Of a stretch of DNA of 64,000 bases, positions 33,427-42,392 are shown piece after piece. Each line of letters starts with the position of its first letter. Positions within the stretch are counted from its first letter, which is position 1. The stretch covers positions 3,100,001 to 3,164,000 of the forward strand of contig NZ_CP017755.1 in the NCBI RefSeq assembly GCF_001854325.1, given 5' to 3'. The notes under the pieces were generated by a model. It was given only the letters and a program-made list of their open reading frames with translations. It had not been told where the DNA came from and searched no databases. Source of the stretch: Cupriavidus malaysiensis (lineage in GTDB: Bacteria; Pseudomonadota; Gammaproteobacteria; Burkholderiales; Burkholderiaceae). The position numbers were made by a program, and so were the translations under genes.

Positions 33427-33609
33427 ATGCCTGAGTCCAGCCTTGCCGCGACGGCGAATGCGACCGCGAACTCCACCGCGAGCCCTGCGGCCGGCACCAT
33501 CGCCCTCGCCATCCTGGCCGACTTCAGCGCCAGCCTGCCGGCCCTCGGCCTGGCTCTGCAGGCCATCGGCGCGGCCCTGCTGATGCTATTCTTCCTTCCT
33601 TGTCTGTAG
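33427..33609 (+). CDS. short hydrophobic reading frame at the island edge, possibly truncated
   Basis: 60 aa from the ATG at 33427, with AAGGAACC upstream. An Ala/Thr-rich N-terminus is followed by one hydrophobic stretch (about residues 22-60). The last 24 bp overlap the 3' end of the convergent quinone reductase-like gene, where base composition changes. It resembles no family I recognise. It may be the start of a membrane protein gene cut by island insertion, or a chance frame. Confidence 0.35.
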   Translation: MPESSLAATANATANSTASPAAGTIALAILADFSASLPALGLALQAIGAALLMLFFLPCL

Positions 33610-34572
33610 AACGACCTTGCCCATTGCGTGTCGTTGTGTAATGGCGTTCAGTGCATCGTTCGCCTCGGCAAGCGGGAAAACCCGATCCACGTGAGCGCGG
33701 ATTTTTCCCTCGCAGTGCCATGCGAATATCTCGGAGAAGCCATCAGCGACTCTGGAGGGAAACCTGCTTCTGTAGTAACCCCGATAGAACCCGATGAGAT
33801 CGAGGTTTTTCACTAAAAAAATATTGGGGCGGATCTCCGGCAACTCGCCACAGGCAAATCCGATGACGATGTATCGTGCTTCTGCCTGGCAACATCGAAT
33901 CGCAAGCTGAGTGAACTCGCCGCCAACAGGATCGAAGACAACATCCACCCCCTCAACGCCCAACGACTCGCGGATAGCTCGCCTCCAATCTGGATGACTG
34001 TAGGTTAAGCCCAGATCTGCACCGCCATGCGATACCGCAAAATCGGCACGCGCCTGCGTGCTGGCGGCAGCCACAACCTTTGCTCCTGAGGCCTTTGCCA
34101 CCTGTACCGCGGCAAGACCGGCACCCCCGCTTGCGCCAAGCACCAGAACGGTCTCCCGGGCGTCAAGCCGAGCCCGCCATTTCAAAGCCCCGATCGCCGT
34201 GCCATAGGCAATTCCCAGCGCAGCAGCTTCGATAAACCCCATGGTGTCGGGAATGGGGTGAACCGAACTGGCATCCACTACGGCTTGATCGGCATAGCCG
34301 CCAAACTGCATACCCACCATCACCCTGTCGCCCGGGCGAACACCGGAAACTGTGGGACACACCTCAACGACAACGCCGGCAGCCTCCAGGCCCGGAACAA
34401 ACGGGAAAGATTGTGGCTTTTCCTGATAAGTTCCGCGCAGGAGCAACAGATCCGCAAAATTCAGGCCGGAGGCATGCGTATCCACACGTACTTGACCTGT
34501 CAGCAGCGGTGTGTCCGGCAGGTCACCAACCAAAAGCGTTTCGCCAATTCGTTCGCAGTACGCAGCTCGCAT
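33586..34572 (-). CDS. quinone oxidoreductase-like MDR enzyme
   Basis: 328 aa. A zinc-free medium-chain dehydrogenase of the QOR/acryloyl-CoA-reductase-like branch: N-terminal catalytic fold with SGLNFADLLLLRGTYQEKP and FPFVPGLEAAGVVVEV, then a Rossmann fold with VLGASGGAGLAAVQVAKASGA-like motif binding NADPH. The C-terminus AMGKVVLQTRKEE is family-like. It reduces an enone or quinone-type substrate. It is the last gene of the island cassette, 27 bp after the MATE gene, so it may tailor or detoxify the product. Confidence 0.88.
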   Translation of the reverse strand: MRAAYCERIGETLLVGDLPDTPLLTGQVRVDTHASGLNFADLLLLRGTYQEKPQSFPFVPGLEAAGVVVEVCPTVSGVRPGDRVMVGMQFGGYADQAVVDASSVHPIPDTMGFIEAAALGIAYGTAIGALKWRARLDARETVLVLGASGGAGLAAVQVAKASGAKVVAAASTQARADFAVSHGGADLGLTYSHPDWRRAIRESLGVEGVDVVFDPVGGEFTQLAIRCCQAEARYIVIGFACGELPEIRPNIFLVKNLDLIGFYRGYYRSRFPSRVADGFSEIFAWHCEGKIRAHVDRVFPLAEANDALNAITQRHAMGKVVLQTRKEE

Positions 34573-34599
34573 GTTGGATACCCCTTGATTGCCATTACG

Positions 34600-35979
34600 T
34601 TAGCGTGCCACTTCCATCGCAAGTCGTCGCTTGGATGCGACCTTGCGATGGAAGATTGCGCCGAGCGCAAGTGCCGCCGCACACAGCGCAATGAATCCAC
34701 CTATCCATACGCCGACGGCACCGAAGCCATCAAGACCGAATGCGATCCAGGTGCCCAGACCCAACCCGAGACCACAGCGCAAGACCACAGCCACGGCAAC
34801 CGCCGGCCATCCAATGCGGTAGGAGCGAAGCACCAAGCAGAAGTAGATTTGTATGGCATCGGCTATCTGGCTGACTGCTACCCAGAAGAGCATCCTAGAC
34901 GCCAAGGCAGCCACATTGACGTCGGTCGTGAACAGCGCGGCGAGTGCATTCCGTCCTGCCAGCAAACCCACTGTCGTCGCTACTGACAGAGAGCAGACCA
35001 TCAGCAGTCCTGCCCTGAAAGTCACAGACTCCTCAGCCAATGCGCTGGCCCCGGCGGATCTGGCAATCAGGACCCCTGACGCGATGCCGACAGACAGCGG
35101 CAGCATGAAGAGGAGGGTAGCGATGTTGGCTGCGATCTGATGTGCAGCAGACGCGTTTGAGCCCGCTCTGGCAATCAGGATTGCCATGCCTGAGAACGAC
35201 ACGATTTCAACGAACTGAACCGCGGAGACTGGAACCGAGGATTGCAGAACAAGCCTTAGTGCGCTCCATGAGACCCGGAGGCCTCCGCTGCGACGAATTC
35301 CTCCTAGAACGTTGCCGCGTAGCAGAACTCGGCAGCAGATGGCGAGACTAGCCCACGCAATAATCACGGACGAGGCTGCGCATCCCAGCACTCCCAGCCG
35401 CTCGCCCGTGTCGTTGCTGGTTGCCTGCATCAGGATGAAATTGAGCGGAACTTTCAGTACCAGGCCGGCAACATTGATCCACATAAGCACTGCGGGACGT
35501 CCCGTTGCCGATTCCATCGCAAACAGCAGCCGGTAAGCCAGGAGTGCAGGCAAGGCAATGGCGAGGACACCGAGGAATGACTGGGTCTTCCTCATGGTTG
35601 CAGGATCGGTGTCCACCAGCATGGTGAGGCACATCATGAGCAGAGGATAGGCAAGCATGGCGCACCCGATAGAGAGCACCATGCCAGTCGATAAGACGGC
35701 GTGCAATTCGGTCGTCGCACCGCTTCCCCAGAGCCGCGCTGCAAGGGGTGTGATGCCATTGGCGATCCCGGTCAGGATGACCAGCACGGTCACGTAGATG
35801 GCGCTGCCGATACCGATCGCTGCAAGGTCCGAAGTTCCGAAGTGCCCCGCCATCACGGTGTCGATGCTCATCATGCCAACGGCGGTAAGCTGCATCCCGA
35901 ACGTAGGGGCAGCCAGCGCGGCGATCCGGCGGGCTTCAGCGCACATGCGCGCCGACTTGAAGTGCGACGATTGTGGCAT
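34600..35979 (-). CDS. MATE-family efflux transporter
   Basis: 459 aa, twelve hydrophobic segments in two repeats. The NorM-like start LAAPTFGMQLTAVGMMSIDTVMAGHFGTSDLAAIGIG and the mid-protein SVPVSAVQFVEIVSFSGMAI repeat are diagnostic. MATE proteins export cationic or drug-like molecules using sodium or proton gradients. Its start overlaps the PP2C-like gene by 44 bp. In this cassette it is a good candidate for exporting the product or for self-protection. Confidence 0.92.
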   Translation of the reverse strand: MPQSSHFKSARMCAEARRIAALAAPTFGMQLTAVGMMSIDTVMAGHFGTSDLAAIGIGSAIYVTVLVILTGIANGITPLAARLWGSGATTELHAVLSTGMVLSIGCAMLAYPLLMMCLTMLVDTDPATMRKTQSFLGVLAIALPALLAYRLLFAMESATGRPAVLMWINVAGLVLKVPLNFILMQATSNDTGERLGVLGCAASSVIIAWASLAICCRVLLRGNVLGGIRRSGGLRVSWSALRLVLQSSVPVSAVQFVEIVSFSGMAILIARAGSNASAAHQIAANIATLLFMLPLSVGIASGVLIARSAGASALAEESVTFRAGLLMVCSLSVATTVGLLAGRNALAALFTTDVNVAALASRMLFWVAVSQIADAIQIYFCLVLRSYRIGWPAVAVAVVLRCGLGLGLGTWIAFGLDGFGAVGVWIGGFIALCAAALALGAIFHRKVASKRRLAMEVAR

Positions 35980-36832
35980 CGTCGGAGGTCTTCAATCTCG
36001 GCCATGACTGGCAAGTGCGATCGTGGCGCTCAATCTCGCGGATCTTGCGTATGAGTCCCACGCCTCCGATCCTGAAGACTTCGTCCAGCGCCTCTTCATA
36101 GGTGCAGGCGCGATACTTCTCGACGAGCCTGGCAGCGCCATCGCTCAACAGCATCAGCGATGGCGGCTCAATAGAATGGAACGATTCGAACCCAAGGGTG
36201 GAGGAATCCCAGTTTGGCGCCGCGATGGCATAGCCTCCCGGCTGGTTCATCGTCTTGCGCCTGACAAGCAAGCGCCGCGAGATTTCGGCCAGGATAGCGC
36301 TTCGCCGTTCGCTGTCTCCATCTGTCTGCGCGAGGCGGGCTGCGAGTGCATCGAATTCCAGATCGAACGACGGTCCGAGCGTGGATTCCACGATATGGGC
36401 CTGTCCTGGGCCCGTCCGTAACACGCCGCAGCAATCCCCGAGTTTGGCGAAGCCAACGAGGTAGCCTCCTGATTGTCGTTGCACCTTTGCCAGGATGACG
36501 GAAGCAGAGGGCAGCAGGTGAGCATCGGCCTCGCGATCGTTGATCAATGCACGAAAGTCCGCATTCGCAGCGTCAATGGCAGATGCCAGAAGCATGTCCG
36601 AGTCGTGCGATCCACCATGGCAAACGATGGCGCGATGCAAGTGCCAGTTGATCCGGAGTGCGTACCATTCAGCGTCGGAGTGATCGGGCGCCAGCATCAA
36701 GGACGGCGAAATTCCGGTAGCGCCATCAATGACCCACGCGTGCACGGACTTGTTATCGGCCACGTAGCCGCAGACGTCCTCGGACGGTTGATTTCCGGAA
36801 GAATACGATCCACTCTGGATTTGCTTCAGCAT
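35936..36832 (-). CDS. PP2C-family protein phosphatase-like protein
   Basis: 298 aa. PP2C (PPM) motifs can be seen: EDVCGYV at the N-terminus, AWVIDGATG (metal-binding Asp-Gly), AKLGDCCGVL (the GDS/GDC-like strand), LMLLSDGAARL (second Asp-Gly) and the C-terminal TSDDATIVALQV with the final Asp pair. So the metal-binding residues appear intact. No kinase gene is present in the island. It may dephosphorylate a small metabolite or a protein; stand-alone PP2C-like genes occur in some biosynthetic clusters, but the role here is unknown. Confidence 0.8.
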   Translation of the reverse strand: MLKQIQSGSYSSGNQPSEDVCGYVADNKSVHAWVIDGATGISPSLMLAPDHSDAEWYALRINWHLHRAIVCHGGSHDSDMLLASAIDAANADFRALINDREADAHLLPSASVILAKVQRQSGGYLVGFAKLGDCCGVLRTGPGQAHIVESTLGPSFDLEFDALAARLAQTDGDSERRSAILAEISRRLLVRRKTMNQPGGYAIAAPNWDSSTLGFESFHSIEPPSLMLLSDGAARLVEKYRACTYEEALDEVFRIGGVGLIRKIREIERHDRTCQSWPRLKTSDDATIVALQVGAHVR

Positions 36833-36865
36833 GGGAGTCTGTGTCCTTTCAATATGTCTGAACGA

Positions 36866-37885
36866 CTATCGCCGGTCGGCTTGGCTAGCCGTGACAATGG
36901 GTGCGTCACGCAGCAGGAGCGCTTGCTCCCAGTCAATGACCGGCCGGTTCAATGCCTTGTTGCCCAGACCGAAGAAGACAAAATCTGCCGTCCTGGCAGA
37001 TCCGAACATGATCAGCGGCCCGCGATACGCGACGAGGACATCGACGACTCGCCGCATCGAGAGCGGCGCCTGGATCGCGTCAAAGAGCACGCCGCCGCCA
37101 TCTTCGAGGAATCGCCCTTGGCCAAGGACGCCATGCTGGTGCGTGACGATATCCAGACCCGGCACACCATACGCTGCCTGTCGGAATGCTGCTTTCACTG
37201 CCTGGTATCTGTCGGGGTAGAGATGTGCTGCATCGCTTCTGATCATCCTAGTGGAGTGCGAGGCAGATGCTGGGAAAGACCGGAATACCCAGGCGCGAAG
37301 TGCATCCAGCACCGTCTCCGCGGCCACAACCTGCATGCAATAGGGTGGCCGGTCGTCCTTGACGACCACTTCAGGAAAATGGCGCCGAATGGCATTGGCA
37401 ACGGTGACGCCAAAAGCGGGCTCCGTAGGGTCATACAGGATGCAGGAGCGCAGCCTGTCTTCCTGAAGCGCCGTATGATTGTCGTTTGCGTACGGATAGT
37501 TCGCGCTGAAAACATCGTGCACAAAGGCTGGAAACGGCAGCACGCCTGATAAGGCAAATGCTGCGCCATAGCCGAGTGAGTATCCCGCGGTGTGGGTTGG
37601 CGCGCTGCGCTGCCGCAGTACCATGGCGGCACAGAGGAACAGTACCAGCTGTGTGACCCTCGCGGTGCGTACGCTTGGCAGGTCGAGCGGGTCAAGCAGC
37701 CTGGGCTTTGCCACTTCCTCGAAGACAGAGCGGCCAAATGTTTCCTTGTACCAGCGATTAAGCGGTTGAAGCAGATCCGCATGCGCGTGGAGCTCGCGCA
37801 GTGTCGTGTGGGGTGACTGACAGTACCGGCCTTCTTCCACACAGCTGGCGTAGTTGAAAAAATATCCAAGGCACGTCATCGGCAT
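36866..37885 (-). CDS. divergent FabD/acyltransferase-like protein
   Basis: 339 aa. It keeps the layout of malonyl-CoA:ACP transacylases: TARVTQLVLFLCAAMVL before the nucleophile elbow GYSLGYGAA (Ser103), the catalytic His in SASHSTRM (His210; FabD has SVPSHCALM), and a C-terminal FFGLGNKAL like FabD VGPGKVL. Differences are large: the N-terminal GQGSQ motif is absent, and the residue 25 after the Ser, Arg117 in E. coli FabD, is Ala128. This suggests transfer of a non-dicarboxylic acyl group, or another reaction. Its start overlaps the aminotransferase stop by 10 bp. Confidence 0.65.
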   Translation of the reverse strand: MPMTCLGYFFNYASCVEEGRYCQSPHTTLRELHAHADLLQPLNRWYKETFGRSVFEEVAKPRLLDPLDLPSVRTARVTQLVLFLCAAMVLRQRSAPTHTAGYSLGYGAAFALSGVLPFPAFVHDVFSANYPYANDNHTALQEDRLRSCILYDPTEPAFGVTVANAIRRHFPEVVVKDDRPPYCMQVVAAETVLDALRAWVFRSFPASASHSTRMIRSDAAHLYPDRYQAVKAAFRQAAYGVPGLDIVTHQHGVLGQGRFLEDGGGVLFDAIQAPLSMRRVVDVLVAYRGPLIMFGSARTADFVFFGLGNKALNRPVIDWEQALLLRDAPIVTASQADRR

Positions 37886-39054
37886 GCCTCCGCCAACGCG
37901 GATACGACTCGATCCGCCTGTGCTTCGGTCACGCCCGGCCCCGAAGGAAGCATGATGGCATGTTCATGCAGACGTGCGGAAAACGCGTCGCGTTGATAGT
38001 ACTCAAAGCGCGAATAGACTGGAAGTTGCGGAAGGGGAATCCAGACTGGGCGCACCATGATCCGTTGCGCCACCAGTTTTTCGATGACGGATCTGGACGG
38101 CTGCGGCAACTCAATACAGTTCATCCAGCAGATGCCGGCTGACTCAGGAGCCTGGTGGGCAAACCGCACACCATCCATTCGCTTGCGGATGGCTCTAACG
38201 TAGTATTGGTGAAGCCTTTGCTTTCGATGAATGCGGTCGGACAGCATCTCCATCTGGGCAACACCTATGGCGGCATTGATGTTGCTCATGCGGAAGTTCA
38301 ATCCATAGTCGTCATGAAAGAACGACATCGTGTCAGCCTTGGCGGTGGACGAAAGATGGCGTGCCCTGCGACAAAGCGATTGCGATTTGGCGATAAGCGC
38401 ACCACCGGCTCCTGTCGTGATGATCTTGTTGGCATTGAAGCTGGTAGTGATGATGATCTGATCGACTTGATCGTCGGGCACGGTCGCTCCCAAGGGCAGT
38501 CCCTTGTAGCGAGCACCCAGGCACTGCGCGGCATCATGAATTACCACCAGGTTCCATTGCCTTGCCAGCGCGTGAATGCGATCGAGCCTCGCGAGGTCTC
38601 CCCACAGGTGCACGAGGCAGATCGTGGAGACCCGCCTTCCGGAAGCTGTATTGACGACGTGGCCCTCCCGGCGCACGCATCGTTCTTCCAGAAATGCCGC
38701 CAGCAATTCATCGTCGACCTGCCAAGTCTTCGGATCCAGGTCTACAAAGACGGGATGCATGCCCGCGCGTACTGCGGCACTGGCGGGCGCGGCAAACGTC
38801 AATGCGGGAATCAGGATCTCGGTGTCCCGCTTGCCGGAAAGCTCAAATGCCAACTGCAGGGCGCAGGTACCGCTCGCAACCGTCACCGCGTCAGCACAAC
38901 CAAACGTCTGTGCGAGCGAAGTCTCGAACTCCCTTACGTACCAGCCGCCGTATGACACCCAGCCTGATTCGATGGCTTGTGCAACATACTCCCGCTCACG
39001 TCCATTCAGGAGCGGGGCATAGTTGGCGATGCTTGTTTCCTCAGACGTTTGCAT
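37876..39054 (-). CDS. DegT/DnrJ/EryC1/StrS-family aminotransferase
   Basis: 392 aa from the ATG at 39054, overlapping the epimerase stop by 14 bp. Family marks: REREYVAQAIESGWVSYGGW, VASGTCALQLAF, PALTFAAPASA, the cofactor Asp in IHDAAQCLGA, Lys in SFNANKIITTGAGGAL, and FRMSNINAAIGVAQME. These PLP enzymes convert a keto group on a nucleotide sugar, or sometimes a cyclitol or other ketone, to an amine using glutamate or glutamine. Here the epimerase/dehydratase next door would supply the keto sugar. Confidence 0.93.
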   Translation of the reverse strand: MQTSEETSIANYAPLLNGREREYVAQAIESGWVSYGGWYVREFETSLAQTFGCADAVTVASGTCALQLAFELSGKRDTEILIPALTFAAPASAAVRAGMHPVFVDLDPKTWQVDDELLAAFLEERCVRREGHVVNTASGRRVSTICLVHLWGDLARLDRIHALARQWNLVVIHDAAQCLGARYKGLPLGATVPDDQVDQIIITTSFNANKIITTGAGGALIAKSQSLCRRARHLSSTAKADTMSFFHDDYGLNFRMSNINAAIGVAQMEMLSDRIHRKQRLHQYYVRAIRKRMDGVRFAHQAPESAGICWMNCIELPQPSRSVIEKLVAQRIMVRPVWIPLPQLPVYSRFEYYQRDAFSARLHEHAIMLPSGPGVTEAQADRVVSALAEACR

Positions 39055-40021
39055 AGCGGCCCCCGTGGAAAGGAAAGAGGTCCAGGCCCAACGCTTCACT
39101 GATCTGACGAGCCGAGTAAGCAACACCATATCGTGGCTTGAATCTCAGTTCGGCGGCGACCTTGGCGAAACTTACCCGGTAGTTCCTGCGGTCGGCGCCG
39201 CGACCGATATCCGTAAAGCGCGCGGTTCTGCTTGTTGCTTGGGCGATCGTATTAATCAAATCGATCTTCCGATAATTTTCCTCATCCGACCCGACATTGA
39301 AGACGTTGACGCCTGCGCGAATTTTTTTGTCGGCGCAGATGTGGCAAATCAAATCCGAAAAATCATTGACATGACAATAAGGTCGCCACGTCTCGGAATC
39401 GTAGACATCGAATGGCGAACCCATGGCGATGGCCTGCGCGAACTCATTGACCGTCAGGTCAAAGCGCATCCGGGCCGATAACCCATGCGCCGTTCCAAAA
39501 CGCAGAATATAGGTTTCGAGTGTGGCTGAATTATCGATAAGCCAGCGCTCAGCCTCCACTTTCGTTTCCGCGTAGAGCGACAATGGATTTAGCGCATTGT
39601 CTTCGCTGAGCAAGGCCATCGAATCACTCAGGCCATAGTTGCTGCAGGTCGATGCAAAAATGAAGCGGCTGGTTTTATTTTCAAGGGCTACGCCGAACAG
39701 CGCCTTGGTGGCGTCCAGATTTGTTTGCCGGGCCGCCTCTGGCATCTTCTTGCAGGCAGGATCTCCGACAATGGCCGCCAGATGAACCACAGCAAATGGA
39801 CGGATCCGGTCTAGCTGCTGTTGGAACTGCGAGTGATCTCTTATATCAAGCCGAACAAACTCAAATCGCGGCATTACCAGAAGCGGCAGCAGGCCCGTCG
39901 CCCCATACATCAGGCTGTCCATGCCGATGACGCTAAACCCTTCACTCAACAGCTTACGGCAGACCCCGCTTCCAATGTAACCGGCCGCACCAGTGACGAG
40001 AACTCGTTTCTCTTCGCTCAC
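39041..40021 (-). CDS. NAD-dependent epimerase/dehydratase
   Basis: 326 aa, extended SDR. Nucleotide loop GAAGYIG (11-17), HLAAIVGDPACK, active-site FASTCSNYG and YAETK (Tyr-x-x-x-Lys). The YCHVNDFSDLICH segment resembles nucleotide-sugar 4-epimerases/dehydratases. It probably oxidises a nucleotide-activated sugar. It overlaps the nucleotidyltransferase stop codon by 4 bp (ATGA) and the aminotransferase start by 14 bp, so the three enzymes should be made together. Confidence 0.9.
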   Translation of the reverse strand: MSEEKRVLVTGAAGYIGSGVCRKLLSEGFSVIGMDSLMYGATGLLPLLVMPRFEFVRLDIRDHSQFQQQLDRIRPFAVVHLAAIVGDPACKKMPEAARQTNLDATKALFGVALENKTSRFIFASTCSNYGLSDSMALLSEDNALNPLSLYAETKVEAERWLIDNSATLETYILRFGTAHGLSARMRFDLTVNEFAQAIAMGSPFDVYDSETWRPYCHVNDFSDLICHICADKKIRAGVNVFNVGSDEENYRKIDLINTIAQATSRTARFTDIGRGADRRNYRVSFAKVAAELRFKPRYGVAYSARQISEALGLDLFPFHGGRYANV

Positions 40022-40740
40022 GCCACTCCCCTCGCCGAGAAAAGCTCATTGGCTCGATGAAGGTCTTCAATCGTGCCTGCGTCGATCCACTTCCCATGAT
40101 GCTGATAGGTCGAAATATGCGATCCGCGTTCCAATAGCAAGGACAGAACCTTGTCGATGCCAAGCTCACCATTTCCCACGGACTCCAGAAGTGTGCCGAT
40201 CGACGGCTGCATCAGGTAGTATCCTGCGAGAACCGGAAACGGAATGGCGGGTTTTTCACTGACCCTCAGCATCCGGGAGTCGTGCGATTCCACCACGCCA
40301 TATGGCACTCGGTATATGTAATCATTCACCGCAACCGAGAAATCTGTGCCGCTGGCCATGTGGAATCGATGAAAGTCGACGAGATCCAGATCCGATGCGA
40401 TGTCTCCGTTCAGCACCATCAGCTGCTTGCTTTCGCCGCGATCAATCAGCTGCTGGCACAGTGCGAGGGCCGACCCGAATGTGCCTCTTGGCTCCAGTTC
40501 CAGCAGGAGCTGGATATGTACGCCATATCGCGATGCCAGCGCTTCCACGATGCTCCCGAACAGGTCAGCACAGTAATGAACGGCGATAAAAATATCCTGC
40601 GATCCAGCTTTTTCCAGCGCACTGACATGCCGCTCCAAAAGGCTGTGATCGCCGATCGGCATGAGCGGTTTTGGTATTACTTTCGTGAACGGGTTCAACC
40701 TGGTACCAAATCCACCCGCGACAATTAGTGTTGTCCACAT
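40018..40740 (-). CDS. sugar-1-phosphate nucleotidyltransferase-like protein
   Basis: 240 aa from the ATG at 40740, which has GGAGGG upstream. The activation signature VAGGFGTRLNPFTKVIPKPLMPIG is complete. Metal-binding Asp is in VLNGDIASDLD, and VSEKPAIPFPVLAGYYLM supplies the sugar-binding Glu-Lys. It would join NTP and a sugar 1-phosphate. The short length fits stand-alone RmlA/MPG1-type catalytic domains without left-handed helix. It is the second gene of the cassette, 29 bp after the Nudix gene. Confidence 0.92.
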   Translation of the reverse strand: MWTTLIVAGGFGTRLNPFTKVIPKPLMPIGDHSLLERHVSALEKAGSQDIFIAVHYCADLFGSIVEALASRYGVHIQLLLELEPRGTFGSALALCQQLIDRGESKQLMVLNGDIASDLDLVDFHRFHMASGTDFSVAVNDYIYRVPYGVVESHDSRMLRVSEKPAIPFPVLAGYYLMQPSIGTLLESVGNGELGIDKVLSLLLERGSHISTYQHHGKWIDAGTIEDLHRANELFSARGVA

Positions 40741-40769
40741 GATGTATACCCTCCATGCTGGGATTCGCC

Positions 40770-41399
40770 TCAACCCATGTTTTCTCTTTCACTCAGCTTC
40801 GCCAAAAAGTCAAATTCGAAACCAGGAAGTCTGCGCAGAGAGAAAAATCCTCTCAGGATCGAAGCTGCGTCATAGCCGGAAAGCATTTCGGAGCCGCTTA
40901 AAACAATATCAAGTAGCTCCGTCAGATCGTACCTGACCACCTCGATATCCGGTTCCTGGCTTGCCACGAGAGATTCCTGAGGCTCGGATACGAGCGCTAG
41001 GAAGCTATAGCCCATGTTCGAATGCGTCGACGGGTTAACGACCATTCTTCCGGTCAAAAGAAGCGGGGCACATGCTGTTAAGCCGGTCTCTTCCCGCAAT
41101 TCTCTGACGGCGGCGGCTGCGCAGTCCTCCCCCTCATCGATCAGCCCTCCAGGCAGCCCCGTCAGTATCTCGCCGAAACCGTGCCGATATTCGCGTATCA
41201 GATAGACGAGACCATTCCGAGTTACCGGCATTATATTGATCCAGTCCCGCCCGTTAATAATGTAGTACGGATCCACGATGGATCCATCAGACCTCAGGCA
41301 GCGATGCCGACAAAGATGAAGCCACTCATCCTTTACCAGATCATCGCTAGCCAAGACATTCCATTTCTTTAAACCGCCATTCAATGAACATCGTTGCAT
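40770..41399 (-). CDS. Nudix hydrolase (ADP-sugar/ADP-ribose pyrophosphatase-like)
   Basis: 209 aa from the ATG at 41399, preceded by GGGAGGTGCT. The Nudix box is complete: G-x5-E-x7-RE-L-x-EE-x-G-L in GLIDEGEDCAAAAVRELREE followed by TGL. The N-terminal strands (IINGRDWINIMPVTRNGLVYLIREYRHG) match ADP-ribose/ADP-sugar pyrophosphatases. It is the first gene of the leftward cassette, so the promoter should lie in 41400-41600. It may recycle nucleotide sugars or remove a damaged intermediate. Confidence 0.92.
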   Translation of the reverse strand: MQRCSLNGGLKKWNVLASDDLVKDEWLHLCRHRCLRSDGSIVDPYYIINGRDWINIMPVTRNGLVYLIREYRHGFGEILTGLPGGLIDEGEDCAAAAVRELREETGLTACAPLLLTGRMVVNPSTHSNMGYSFLALVSEPQESLVASQEPDIEVVRYDLTELLDIVLSGSEMLSGYDAASILRGFFSLRRLPGFEFDFLAKLSERENMG

Positions 41400-42284
41400 A
41401 GCACCTCCCAAGATCCTTAACCACTTGCCCTACCCGCAATTAGCCTCTCGAATACTTGCTCCCGCGCCTCCCCGCCGATCGCTTTTATGGCAGTTCTTGC
41501 GCATTTCTTTTTCCATTATCAGCGACATAAAAATGGCCTAATTCTTTGCCTGCAGCAATGCAGCCCCTTCATATGGAGATGCAGCATACGGATTCATCAG
41601 GCACAAGGAAATCAGAGGACTACGAAATTGATCATCAATATCTGCAGAGCAGAATTCGGCAAGTTTTAAAGCTCTCGAATTCTGACAAAGGCTGGGCAGG
41701 TGGTTCTTTGGTCATGCAACTGGCCGATACAAACTCAACGAGAATGGTCACGACAGAGCCTTCAGCGCACATGCCGAGCGCTTCGCGAAGACTCGTGGTC
41801 AGTGCTGCCTCCACGGCTGCACCATCGATGCGGCTGTGCTATCCCTGCGGCTCCCCTTGAGATTCAGCCAGAGCCTGGCGGCTACCGGTACCGGCTTGCC
41901 GCCGACCGCATCGAAACGGCATGGGGAGTCGCATTGACCCAGGACGACAGCGGCAGGATGGCCGCTGGAAGCGTCATCGAGCCAGATGGATGCTGGGCTT
42001 GCCATAGGGACTCCCTGTGACTGAGCACCCACGGCGATCACTCACTAGACAGTGGCTAGCGGCAGGCTCGCGGGCTGATGGACGTAGATAGGCCTCGGTA
42101 ACCACGAGCGTGCCCGTCGCTCTGGATCGTGGATATCAGACTATTCATCCCGTACGTATGGGAATGTCTTCACACACAAGGCAGGTAGTCTCTTCTGATG
42201 GCTCAGCCTGATGTGTCGCCGCGCATGGACAGGGGAAATGCCATCTCTGACTGGCGCGCCTGCGACGACTCTTGCGCGCAGAAC

Positions 42285-42309
42285 ATCGTCGCTCGTCGCA
42301 AGCGACGAT
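42285..42309. repeat. inverted repeat near the island boundary
   Basis: ATCGTCGCT and AGCGACGAT are perfect 9-bp arms around a 7-nt loop, close to the composition change. It may be part of a terminator pair or mark the boundary. Confidence 0.55.
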
Positions 42310-42325
42310 CGAGCAACACAATTGT

Positions 42326-42359
42326 GGCACCGGCGGCAATGCGCCGCCGGGCCGGTGCC
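42326..42359 (-). terminator. probable terminator of the lipoprotein gene
   Basis: GGCACCGGC (42326-42334) and GCCGGTGCC (42351-42359) form a perfect stem with a smaller GGCGGC/GCCGCC stem inside. Leftward from the lipoprotein stop (42393) it is followed by ACAATTGTGTTG, a weak T-rich tail; CACAATTGTG there is itself a 10-bp palindrome. Confidence 0.6.
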
Positions 42360-42392
42360 GCCGCCACCCTAACAGGCGGCGGCCACCTCCCC

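Follow-up and report, generated by a model that had tools for sequence, protein, structure and literature searches.

The combination of an SDR, a sugar-1-phosphate nucleotidyltransferase (NTPT) and a DegT aminotransferase is known from true glycan loci, and relatives of the DegT and NTPT proteins discussed here occur in legionaminic-acid or EPS loci of Sulfitobacter, Chelatococcus and Rhizobium. The legionaminic acid gene set (LegB, LegC and a nucleotidyltransferase) is matched by our SDR, NTPT and DegT, the top NCBIfam model of the DegT being LegC (TIGR04181). Both enzymes stay below the respective cut-offs, however (DegT, 336.9 vs 420 for LegC; SDR, 63 vs 475 for LegB), and NeuB, NeuC and a CMP-sugar synthetase are absent from the eight genes of the locus and nine flanking ORFs, whereas an acyltransferase, a Nudix hydrolase, a PP2C-like phosphatase, a MATE exporter and a quinone-reductase-like MDR are added. 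With regard to the perosamine pathway, the DegT lies nearest to perosamine synthetases among solved structures, and the NTPT to mannose-1-phosphate guanylyltransferases, but a separate GDP-mannose 4,6-dehydratase seems to be lacking, and the SDR is without the acidic residue that 4,6-dehydratases carry at the corresponding site.

The locus is situated in a window of 64,000 nucleotides, the whole stretch of Cupriavidus malaysiensis DNA that was analysed. In our reading, to which we assign a probability of about one half, it is a self-contained acquired operon that would make and export a small, probably N-acylated 4-amino-4-deoxy sugar. Its eight ORFs, all co-directional on the minus strand, encode the Nudix hydrolase, NTPT, SDR, DegT, a divergent acyltransferase, the PP2C-like phosphatase, the MATE exporter and the MDR. 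The eight 1-kb bins from 34001 to 42000 are the lowest in GC among the 64 bins of the window (0.53-0.60 vs 0.65-0.78 elsewhere), in line with the low-GC island of the preliminary description, and the genes themselves have a GC of 0.52-0.60 vs 0.70-0.75 for the TetR gene, the TetR-MDR gap and the right-flank gene. The island had been drawn from 33586 to 42330; the genes are present, but the right edge takes in about 0.93 kb upstream of the Nudix gene. This upstream stretch (41400..42392, unstranded, GC 0.50-0.64) has no convincing gene or promoter, is not conserved in a congener (G008) whose homology to the window ends at 41372, and is possibly a residue of the insertion; ORF 41799-42041, one of the nine flanking ORFs scanned, is probably not a gene. 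Five overlapping junctions had been counted, and only four are obtained with the best start codons (NTPT/SDR 4 nt, SDR/DegT 14, DegT/acyltransferase 10, PP2C/MATE 44). The Nudix/NTPT junction is a 29-nt gap with the NTPT ATG at 40740, overlapping only with a TTG at 40773, and gaps of 33 and 27 nt separate acyltransferase from PP2C and MATE from MDR. Promoter and terminator patterns were at chance level (3 vs 3.6 and 6 vs 7.2 expected), repeats were chance-like, mobile-element ends were not seen, RNA families gave one sub-threshold match, and phage-family and defence profile libraries produced generic matches only.

Pfam and NCBIfam profile searches upheld the family assignments of MDR, MATE, DegT, SDR, nucleotidyltransferase and Nudix. 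The first gene (40770..41399, minus strand) encodes a NudE/ADP-sugar pyrophosphatase-like Nudix hydrolase with 49.9 bits for PF00293 (cut-off 21.1), its best NCBIfam model, NudE, remaining below cut-off (51.4 vs 169); PDB matches include NudF, NudE and ADP-ribose/ADP-sugar pyrophosphatases, and the Nudix box, read in the predicted translation by its consensus, is intact. The NTPT (40018..40740, minus strand, ATG at 40740 chosen) scores 105.9 bits for PF00483 when the longer ORF from the upstream TTG is used. The SDR (39041..40021, minus strand), of the nucleotide-sugar epimerase/4-oxidoreductase type, matches PF01370 (122.6 bits) better than the GDP-mannose 4,6-dehydratase model PF16363, whose cut-off it nevertheless exceeds (93.9 vs 27). 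Its active-site stretch reads STCSNYG, and a similar non-acidic stretch is found in its best solved relative, 6vo6 (E 1.4e-38), which we take to be Campylobacter Cj1427 of a capsule heptose pathway, whereas no capsule genes stand beside the cassette. The DegT/DnrJ/EryC1/StrS aminotransferase (37876..39054, minus strand), LegC/perosamine-synthase-like, reaches 249.1 bits for PF01041; alignment to its best solved relative, the perosamine synthetase 3bn1, agrees with the start at 39054 and sets the lysine in NANKIITTGAGG against the NKIITTG lysine, which presumably binds PLP. A phylum-wide search with the SDR at E<=1e-55 gave matches in 11 of 398 genomes, namely our own and ten at 40-43%. One of these ten neighbourhoods (G823, L082) also holds a DegT (28.5%) and an NTPT (32%); the other nine, some of which end at contig ends, are without another cassette gene at E<=1e-4. 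A distant DegT-SDR-NTPT trio was also observed on a Sinorhizobium mexicanum plasmid.

The divergent acyltransferase (36866..37885, minus strand) had been called FabD-like. The likeness stands in about 50 columns round the nucleophile elbow (GYSLG, S103), but no Pfam model was matched at E<=1, searches of NCBIfam, PADLOC and PHROG at E<=0.01 came out empty, and the four PF00698 matches that its own genome gives at E<=10 do not include this protein. Against a FabD profile built from 31 PF00698 loci, of which a length and motif filter kept 25 and left out six, hhalign gave a score of 34.1 vs 24.6 for the best of 100 column shuffles, and the TQ...GxSxG stretch is 36% identical to the profile over 50 columns; the seven other cassette proteins scored 8.4-19.7 against an earlier version in which one member was read in the wrong frame. 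Forced global alignment did not extend the likeness (score 3.3), and both predicted structure models are too poor for judging it (mean pLDDT 38 and 36). S103 and Q79 align with the active-site Ser and Gln of FabD, and the candidate H210 is placed by spacing alone, at an offset of +107 vs +109 in FabD. The carboxylate-binding arginine conserved in FabD, found in 25 of 25 sequences, is A128 here, a position obtained by prolonging the alignment without gaps, and the transferred acyl group is therefore probably not malonyl.

Matches to this acyltransferase were found in 2 of 100 genomes of relatives (its own and G008), 1 of 369 at class level (its own), 4 of 399 at order level (its own and three weak partial matches, two with an internal stop) and 4 of 398 at phylum level (its own, G788, G685 and G742), the samples overlapping and each counting the own genome. 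The G788 match falls in the frame of an MFS transporter and was discarded, that in G685 is weak and has an internal stop, and that in G742, aligned over about 54 residues, is a real acyltransferase, presumably MdcH-like. Plasmids yielded the single record of C. necator C39, phages none, and the PDB none at E<=10; two pattern scans of genome contigs, which rely on exact short-word matches and can miss near genomes, returned 47 and 11 stretches, none of them confirmed.

The PP2C-like phosphatase (35936..36832, minus strand) earns this name by its motifs ED, DG, SDG and DD, which bind metal and are kept in 11 of 11 aligned proteins, and not by its PF13672 score of 15.3, below the cut-off of 24 bits. 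Three congener copies score 14.6-16.5; among six distant relatives, five pass (24.8-37.8) and that of Streptomyces fails (23.3). In 4 of 4 sphingomonad plasmids examined, the gene of the relative stands next to AnmK and close to NagA or NagA-like genes, which makes an amino-sugar phosphate a plausible substrate. On four actinobacterial plasmids the neighbour is a sigma-70-family gene in two cases and an unnamed gene in the other two, and the enzyme could act on a protein instead. The MATE exporter (34600..35979, minus strand) exceeds the TIGR00797 cut-off (164.4 vs 147.4) and gives 123.9 bits for PF01554. The quinone-oxidoreductase-like MDR (33586..34572, minus strand) matches PF00107, PF13602 and PF08240, and TIGR02824 at 202 vs a cut-off of 296.8; despite earlier doubt it seems to belong to the cassette, since in G008 the spacer between MATE and MDR survives together with the start codon of the latter, the rest of the gene being gone.

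That the genes form one unit is borne out by G008, where a 6.66-kb copy is inserted between two convergent genes that adjoin each other in all six genomes examined without the cassette. Further copies reside in C. necator C39 and in G059, and the search for the same gene order elsewhere, as had been proposed, led to G008, which has seven of the genes in identical order, and to C39, where that order persists in decayed form. The cassette moves as a unit and is read as horizontally acquired. The G008 junctions show no obvious target-site duplication; an empty site for the window itself was not found among six genomes compared, the right flank being conserved in them and the left flank absent from the compared stretch save one 106-bp match. 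For six genes, dN/dS between the window and G008 is 0.13-0.21, which supports the view that they were held under selection. The copies in G008, C39 and G059 are all decayed and only that of the window (G000) is complete; as three of four are broken, the product is dispensable. MATE is whole in two of the four loci and fragmentary in the other two. The phosphatase keeps its full 298-aa frame in all four, and in G059 it is the sole whole cassette gene, preceded by a remaining segment of upstream DNA; its branch changes are 20 synonymous and 10 non-synonymous in G059, and 23 and 13 in G008. A foreign ArgRS adjoins the decayed C39 cassette, and its Roseibium relative is found some 4 kb away from an NRPS/PKS gene. 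As a fixed cassette part it was dismissed, G000, G008 and G059 showing only 30-42% matches in one place each; PF00750 at E<=1e-30 was found in 0 of 60 genomes of the genus, by a control that misses 4 of 14 known genomes.

The chemistry can be rationalized from enzyme families and active-site motifs. The NTPT would activate a sugar-1-phosphate, whose C4 the SDR would oxidise to a ketone without 4,6-dehydration; the DegT would place an amine on the ketone, and the FabD-like protein would transfer an acyl group, probably other than malonyl, to that amine. The Nudix enzyme would then cleave off the nucleotide to give a sugar-1-phosphate, the PP2C-like enzyme would take off the phosphate, late or at export, and MATE would export the product; the MDR would adjust oxidation state. 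This route is supported, besides the families and motifs, by the absence of glycan genes, the insertion as a unit, the dN/dS values, the AnmK neighbours of the PP2C relatives and the whole MATE in two loci. Against it speak the weak and local FabD likeness, the reliance of the SDR argument on the dehydratase motif, the occurrence of the SDR-NTPT-DegT trio in true glycan loci, the breakage of three of the four copies and the possible action of PP2C on protein.

It could be argued that the cassette supplies or modifies surface glycans, with glycosyltransferases encoded at other sites of the genome drawing on the amino sugar, and the relatives in legionaminic-acid or EPS loci would fit. Such a role is quite unlikely: the eight cassette genes and nine flanking ORFs of the window hold no glycosyltransferase or polysaccharide exporter, as had been claimed, and no glycosyltransferase, flippase/polymerase or export gene surrounds C39 (10 ORFs) or G008 (7 ORFs). 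G059, whose flanks match those of G008 by DNA, was judged non-glycan on that basis, so that an O-antigen or capsule setting, which had been named beforehand as refuting the earlier interpretation, is encountered in none of the four loci. Furthermore, the exporter is of the MATE type, and the activated sugar on which a glycosyltransferase depends would be broken down by Nudix and phosphatase. The same pair of hydrolases, in one operon, is more simply read as removing the nucleotide, which disfavours a product that stays a modified nucleotide with Nudix in house-cleaning or self-protection; NTPT and Nudix do occur together and a Staphylococcus epidermidis plasmid carries a related row with MFS and without glycosyltransferase, yet we regard this as very unlikely. 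It is hardly credible that functionally separate units came together by chance in a region of low GC. The fall in GC between MATE (0.60) and Nudix (0.52) could mean that parts differ in age, but the seven-gene order in G008, the decayed order in C39 and the clean insertion largely refute the idea.

Unlikely, though the least so of these, is an antibiotic-like or signalling product that PP2C activates or disarms, giving immunity and hence outliving the rest of the cassette. The intact phosphatase in every locus, its G059 branch changes and the ArgRS with its Roseibium relative could be seen in this light. However, the chance that the sole G059 survivor is also intact in both remaining decayed loci is (6/7)*(3/7)=0.37 with the C39 Nudix taken as broken, or 0.49 with it counted whole, and retention was accordingly rejected as proof of immunity; the G059 deletion cannot be dated, and the complete cassette of G000 is without the extra ArgRS. 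Distinctly unlikely is the combined proposal that a FabD-type enzyme acylates a nucleotide-activated 4-amino sugar, that Nudix and PP2C free a bioactive exported product, and that PP2C is an immunity factor left as an orphan in a non-producing relative.

If the route to a free, exported amino sugar holds, it would add to the ways of making such compounds outside surface-glycan loci; the FabD-type acyltransferase would then serve a purpose other than fatty acid or polyketide synthesis, and the PP2C fold might act on small molecules in amino-sugar metabolism. One intact copy alongside three broken ones provides a ready natural comparison. Compared with FabD/malonyl-ACP transferase (PF00698), the cassette protein shares the local elbow and differs in having Ala for the invariant Arg. 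The S. epidermidis plasmid pMDRSE1 likewise carries SDR, NTPT and DegT genes in a row, along with an MFS transporter (NTPT 33%, DegT 27% identical), but its SDR does not match ours at E<=1e-3 and its accessory genes are a methyltransferase, IleRS, a fructosamine-kinase family member and MFS. The lead on the phosphatase is shared with sphingomonad recycling clusters: aligned to the window PP2C, three of the four sphingomonad proteins share 27-28% identity over 92-97% and that from Croceicoccus 30.5% over 75%, and all carry the same metal motifs, but they reside in amino-sugar recycling or catabolic clusters, whereas the window PP2C is part of a biosynthetic cassette.

The cassette is a real, mobile and self-contained unit that most likely makes a small exported amino sugar, and this product is probably acylated. 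It lies on the minus strand at ~33586–41399 of the window, in a genome of 7.95 Mb in three contigs, with the gene order Nudix, sugar-1-phosphate nucleotidyltransferase (NTPT), SDR, DegT aminotransferase, divergent acyltransferase, PP2C-like phosphatase, MATE exporter and quinone-reductase-like MDR. The low-GC island of the preliminary description is borne out by the base composition, with GC of 0.53–0.60 in the eight 1-kb bins of 34001–42000 and higher values in all remaining bins of the window (0.65–0.78), whereas the overlaps it had claimed at five junctions come to four when best starts are used. One flank carries a TctC receptor, an amidase, GntR and TetR, the other a hypothetical protein, a Crp-like regulator, and Coq4-like and old-yellow-enzyme-like proteins. 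Within the ~1 kb upstream of the Nudix gene (41400–42392) no convincing gene was found, and the sole match to this stretch in the genus search was 39 bp in genome G032.

A DNA search of 60 genus genomes, the own genome included, returned matches in seven, of which the own genome and two congeners, G008 and G059, hold real cassette matches; G005, G032, G034 and G053 were dropped, with matches of just 35–176 bp at E 2e-5 or weaker. Among plasmid records, C. necator C39 alone gave a near match to the cassette. The G008 block (6.66 kb, locus L004 7799–14456) is flanked by a LysR-family gene on one side and by an HD-domain gene convergent with it on the other; these two are adjacent in all six cassette-free genomes fetched, taken from 26 (besides G008 and G059) with the LysR gene at E ≤ 1e-100. 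The G059 remnant occupies the identical site, the C39 copy another locus on a 1.19-Mb replicon, and the window copy a third; thus, the block has moved between loci. The earlier suggestion that the product is not a surface glycan withstands the check set for it, as none of the four loci found is an O-antigen or capsule locus. Upstream, G008 and G059 have in common a stretch of 84% identity (L004 8012–8075; G059 locus L015 9907–9970) containing an inverted repeat that reads TTGCGG...CCGCAA in G008, is imperfect in G059 and is possibly an operator; no repeat of this type was seen upstream of the window copy.

Only one of the four copies, that of the window, is complete. At the amino-acid level, the G008 copy is ~82–88% identical from Nudix to MATE (70% for one short piece of DegT), but ~0.59 kb has been lost out of frame from DegT, and MDR is absent, with the MATE–MDR spacer and the MDR start codon kept. 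The C39 copy has kept NTPT, SDR and PP2C as open frames, but its DegT carries a frameshift, ~0.6 kb is missing from its acyltransferase and its Nudix has an altered end; all that is left of its MATE is part of the start and a fragment in inverted orientation. Divergent from this decayed cassette, and ~1.1 kb away from its start, lies a foreign arginyl-tRNA synthetase gene (p1, NZ_CP068436.1, 18011–19807, plus strand), which could be a self-resistance-type synthetase; PF00750 at E ≤ 1e-30 was found in 0/60 genus genomes, an extra copy of this sort was not found in the genome of the window, and a Roseibium relative (49%) lies ~4 kb from an NRPS/PKS gene. Pairwise dN/dS between the window and G008 is 0.13–0.21 for the six genes compared, and therefore the block has been under purifying selection through most of its history.

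PP2C is whole in all four genus loci and is the only whole gene of G059, where part of the upstream region and 48 nt of NTPT precede it and scraps of MATE are also present. The changes on the G059 branch (20 synonymous, 10 non-synonymous) indicate constraint on PP2C over much of its length. This retention hints at immunity at most; of the seven genes, six are whole in one of the other two decayed loci and three in the other, and the one survivor of G059 would be whole in both with a probability of 0.37 by chance. Against Pfam the window protein scores under the cut-off, yet 95% of its length aligns with a PP2C protein of Sphingopyxis (E 9e-13), and all 11 aligned proteins retain the metal motifs. 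Among the 29 plasmid records of relatives, the gene adjoins AnmK (anhydro-MurNAc kinase) in 4/4 distinct sphingomonad plasmids examined (L028, L031, L093, L094), a count that leaves out two more Sphingopyxis records equal in coverage, identity and E. Annotated NagA lies up to 5 kb off in Sphingopyxis granuli and Novosphingobium EMRT-2, and a NagA-like amidohydrolase (Pfam) is nearby in Novosphingobium RL4 and Croceicoccus. In the four actinobacterial plasmids opened, PP2C stands beside a sigma-70-family gene in two and an unnamed gene in two. As a lead, the AnmK/NagA neighbourhood may point PP2C toward amino-sugar phosphates.

The nearest solved structures are mannose-1-phosphate guanylyltransferases for NTPT, 6vo6 for SDR and perosamine synthetases for DegT. 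4,6-Dehydratases carry an acidic residue in an active-site stretch that reads STCSNYG in the SDR, and 6vo6 is likewise non-acidic there (NTNSGYG); the SDR is accordingly predicted to oxidize C4 without dehydration. Amination would follow; Nudix would take off the nucleotide and PP2C the phosphate, and the product would leave the cell through MATE. A row of SDR, sugar-phosphate nucleotidyltransferase, DegT, methyltransferase, mupA IleRS, fructosamine-kinase-family and MFS transporter genes on S. epidermidis pMDRSE1 (NZ_CP133664.1, 8103–16795) contains no glycosyltransferase and looks like a small-metabolite cluster around the known resistance gene mupA.

The acyltransferase matches no Pfam family at E ≤ 1, and its own genome has four PF00698 matches at E ≤ 10 that do not include it. 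Compared by hhalign with a profile built from 25 FabD proteins, it scores 34.1 across residues 75–124 (best of 100 column shuffles, 24.6), and in hmmsearch the G008 and window proteins rank first, with E 0.0023 and 0.037 (best of 200 shuffles, 0.42); forcing a global alignment brought no extension (score 3.3). Neither for this protein nor for PP2C was the AlphaFold model good enough to use. The protein retains the FabD nucleophile Ser and a Gln and has a His at nearly the correct spacing. The Arg found in 25/25 FabDs, presumably tied to malonyl-donor use, is Ala in the window protein, which from these residues we read as an enzyme of FabD type that would not use malonyl donors.
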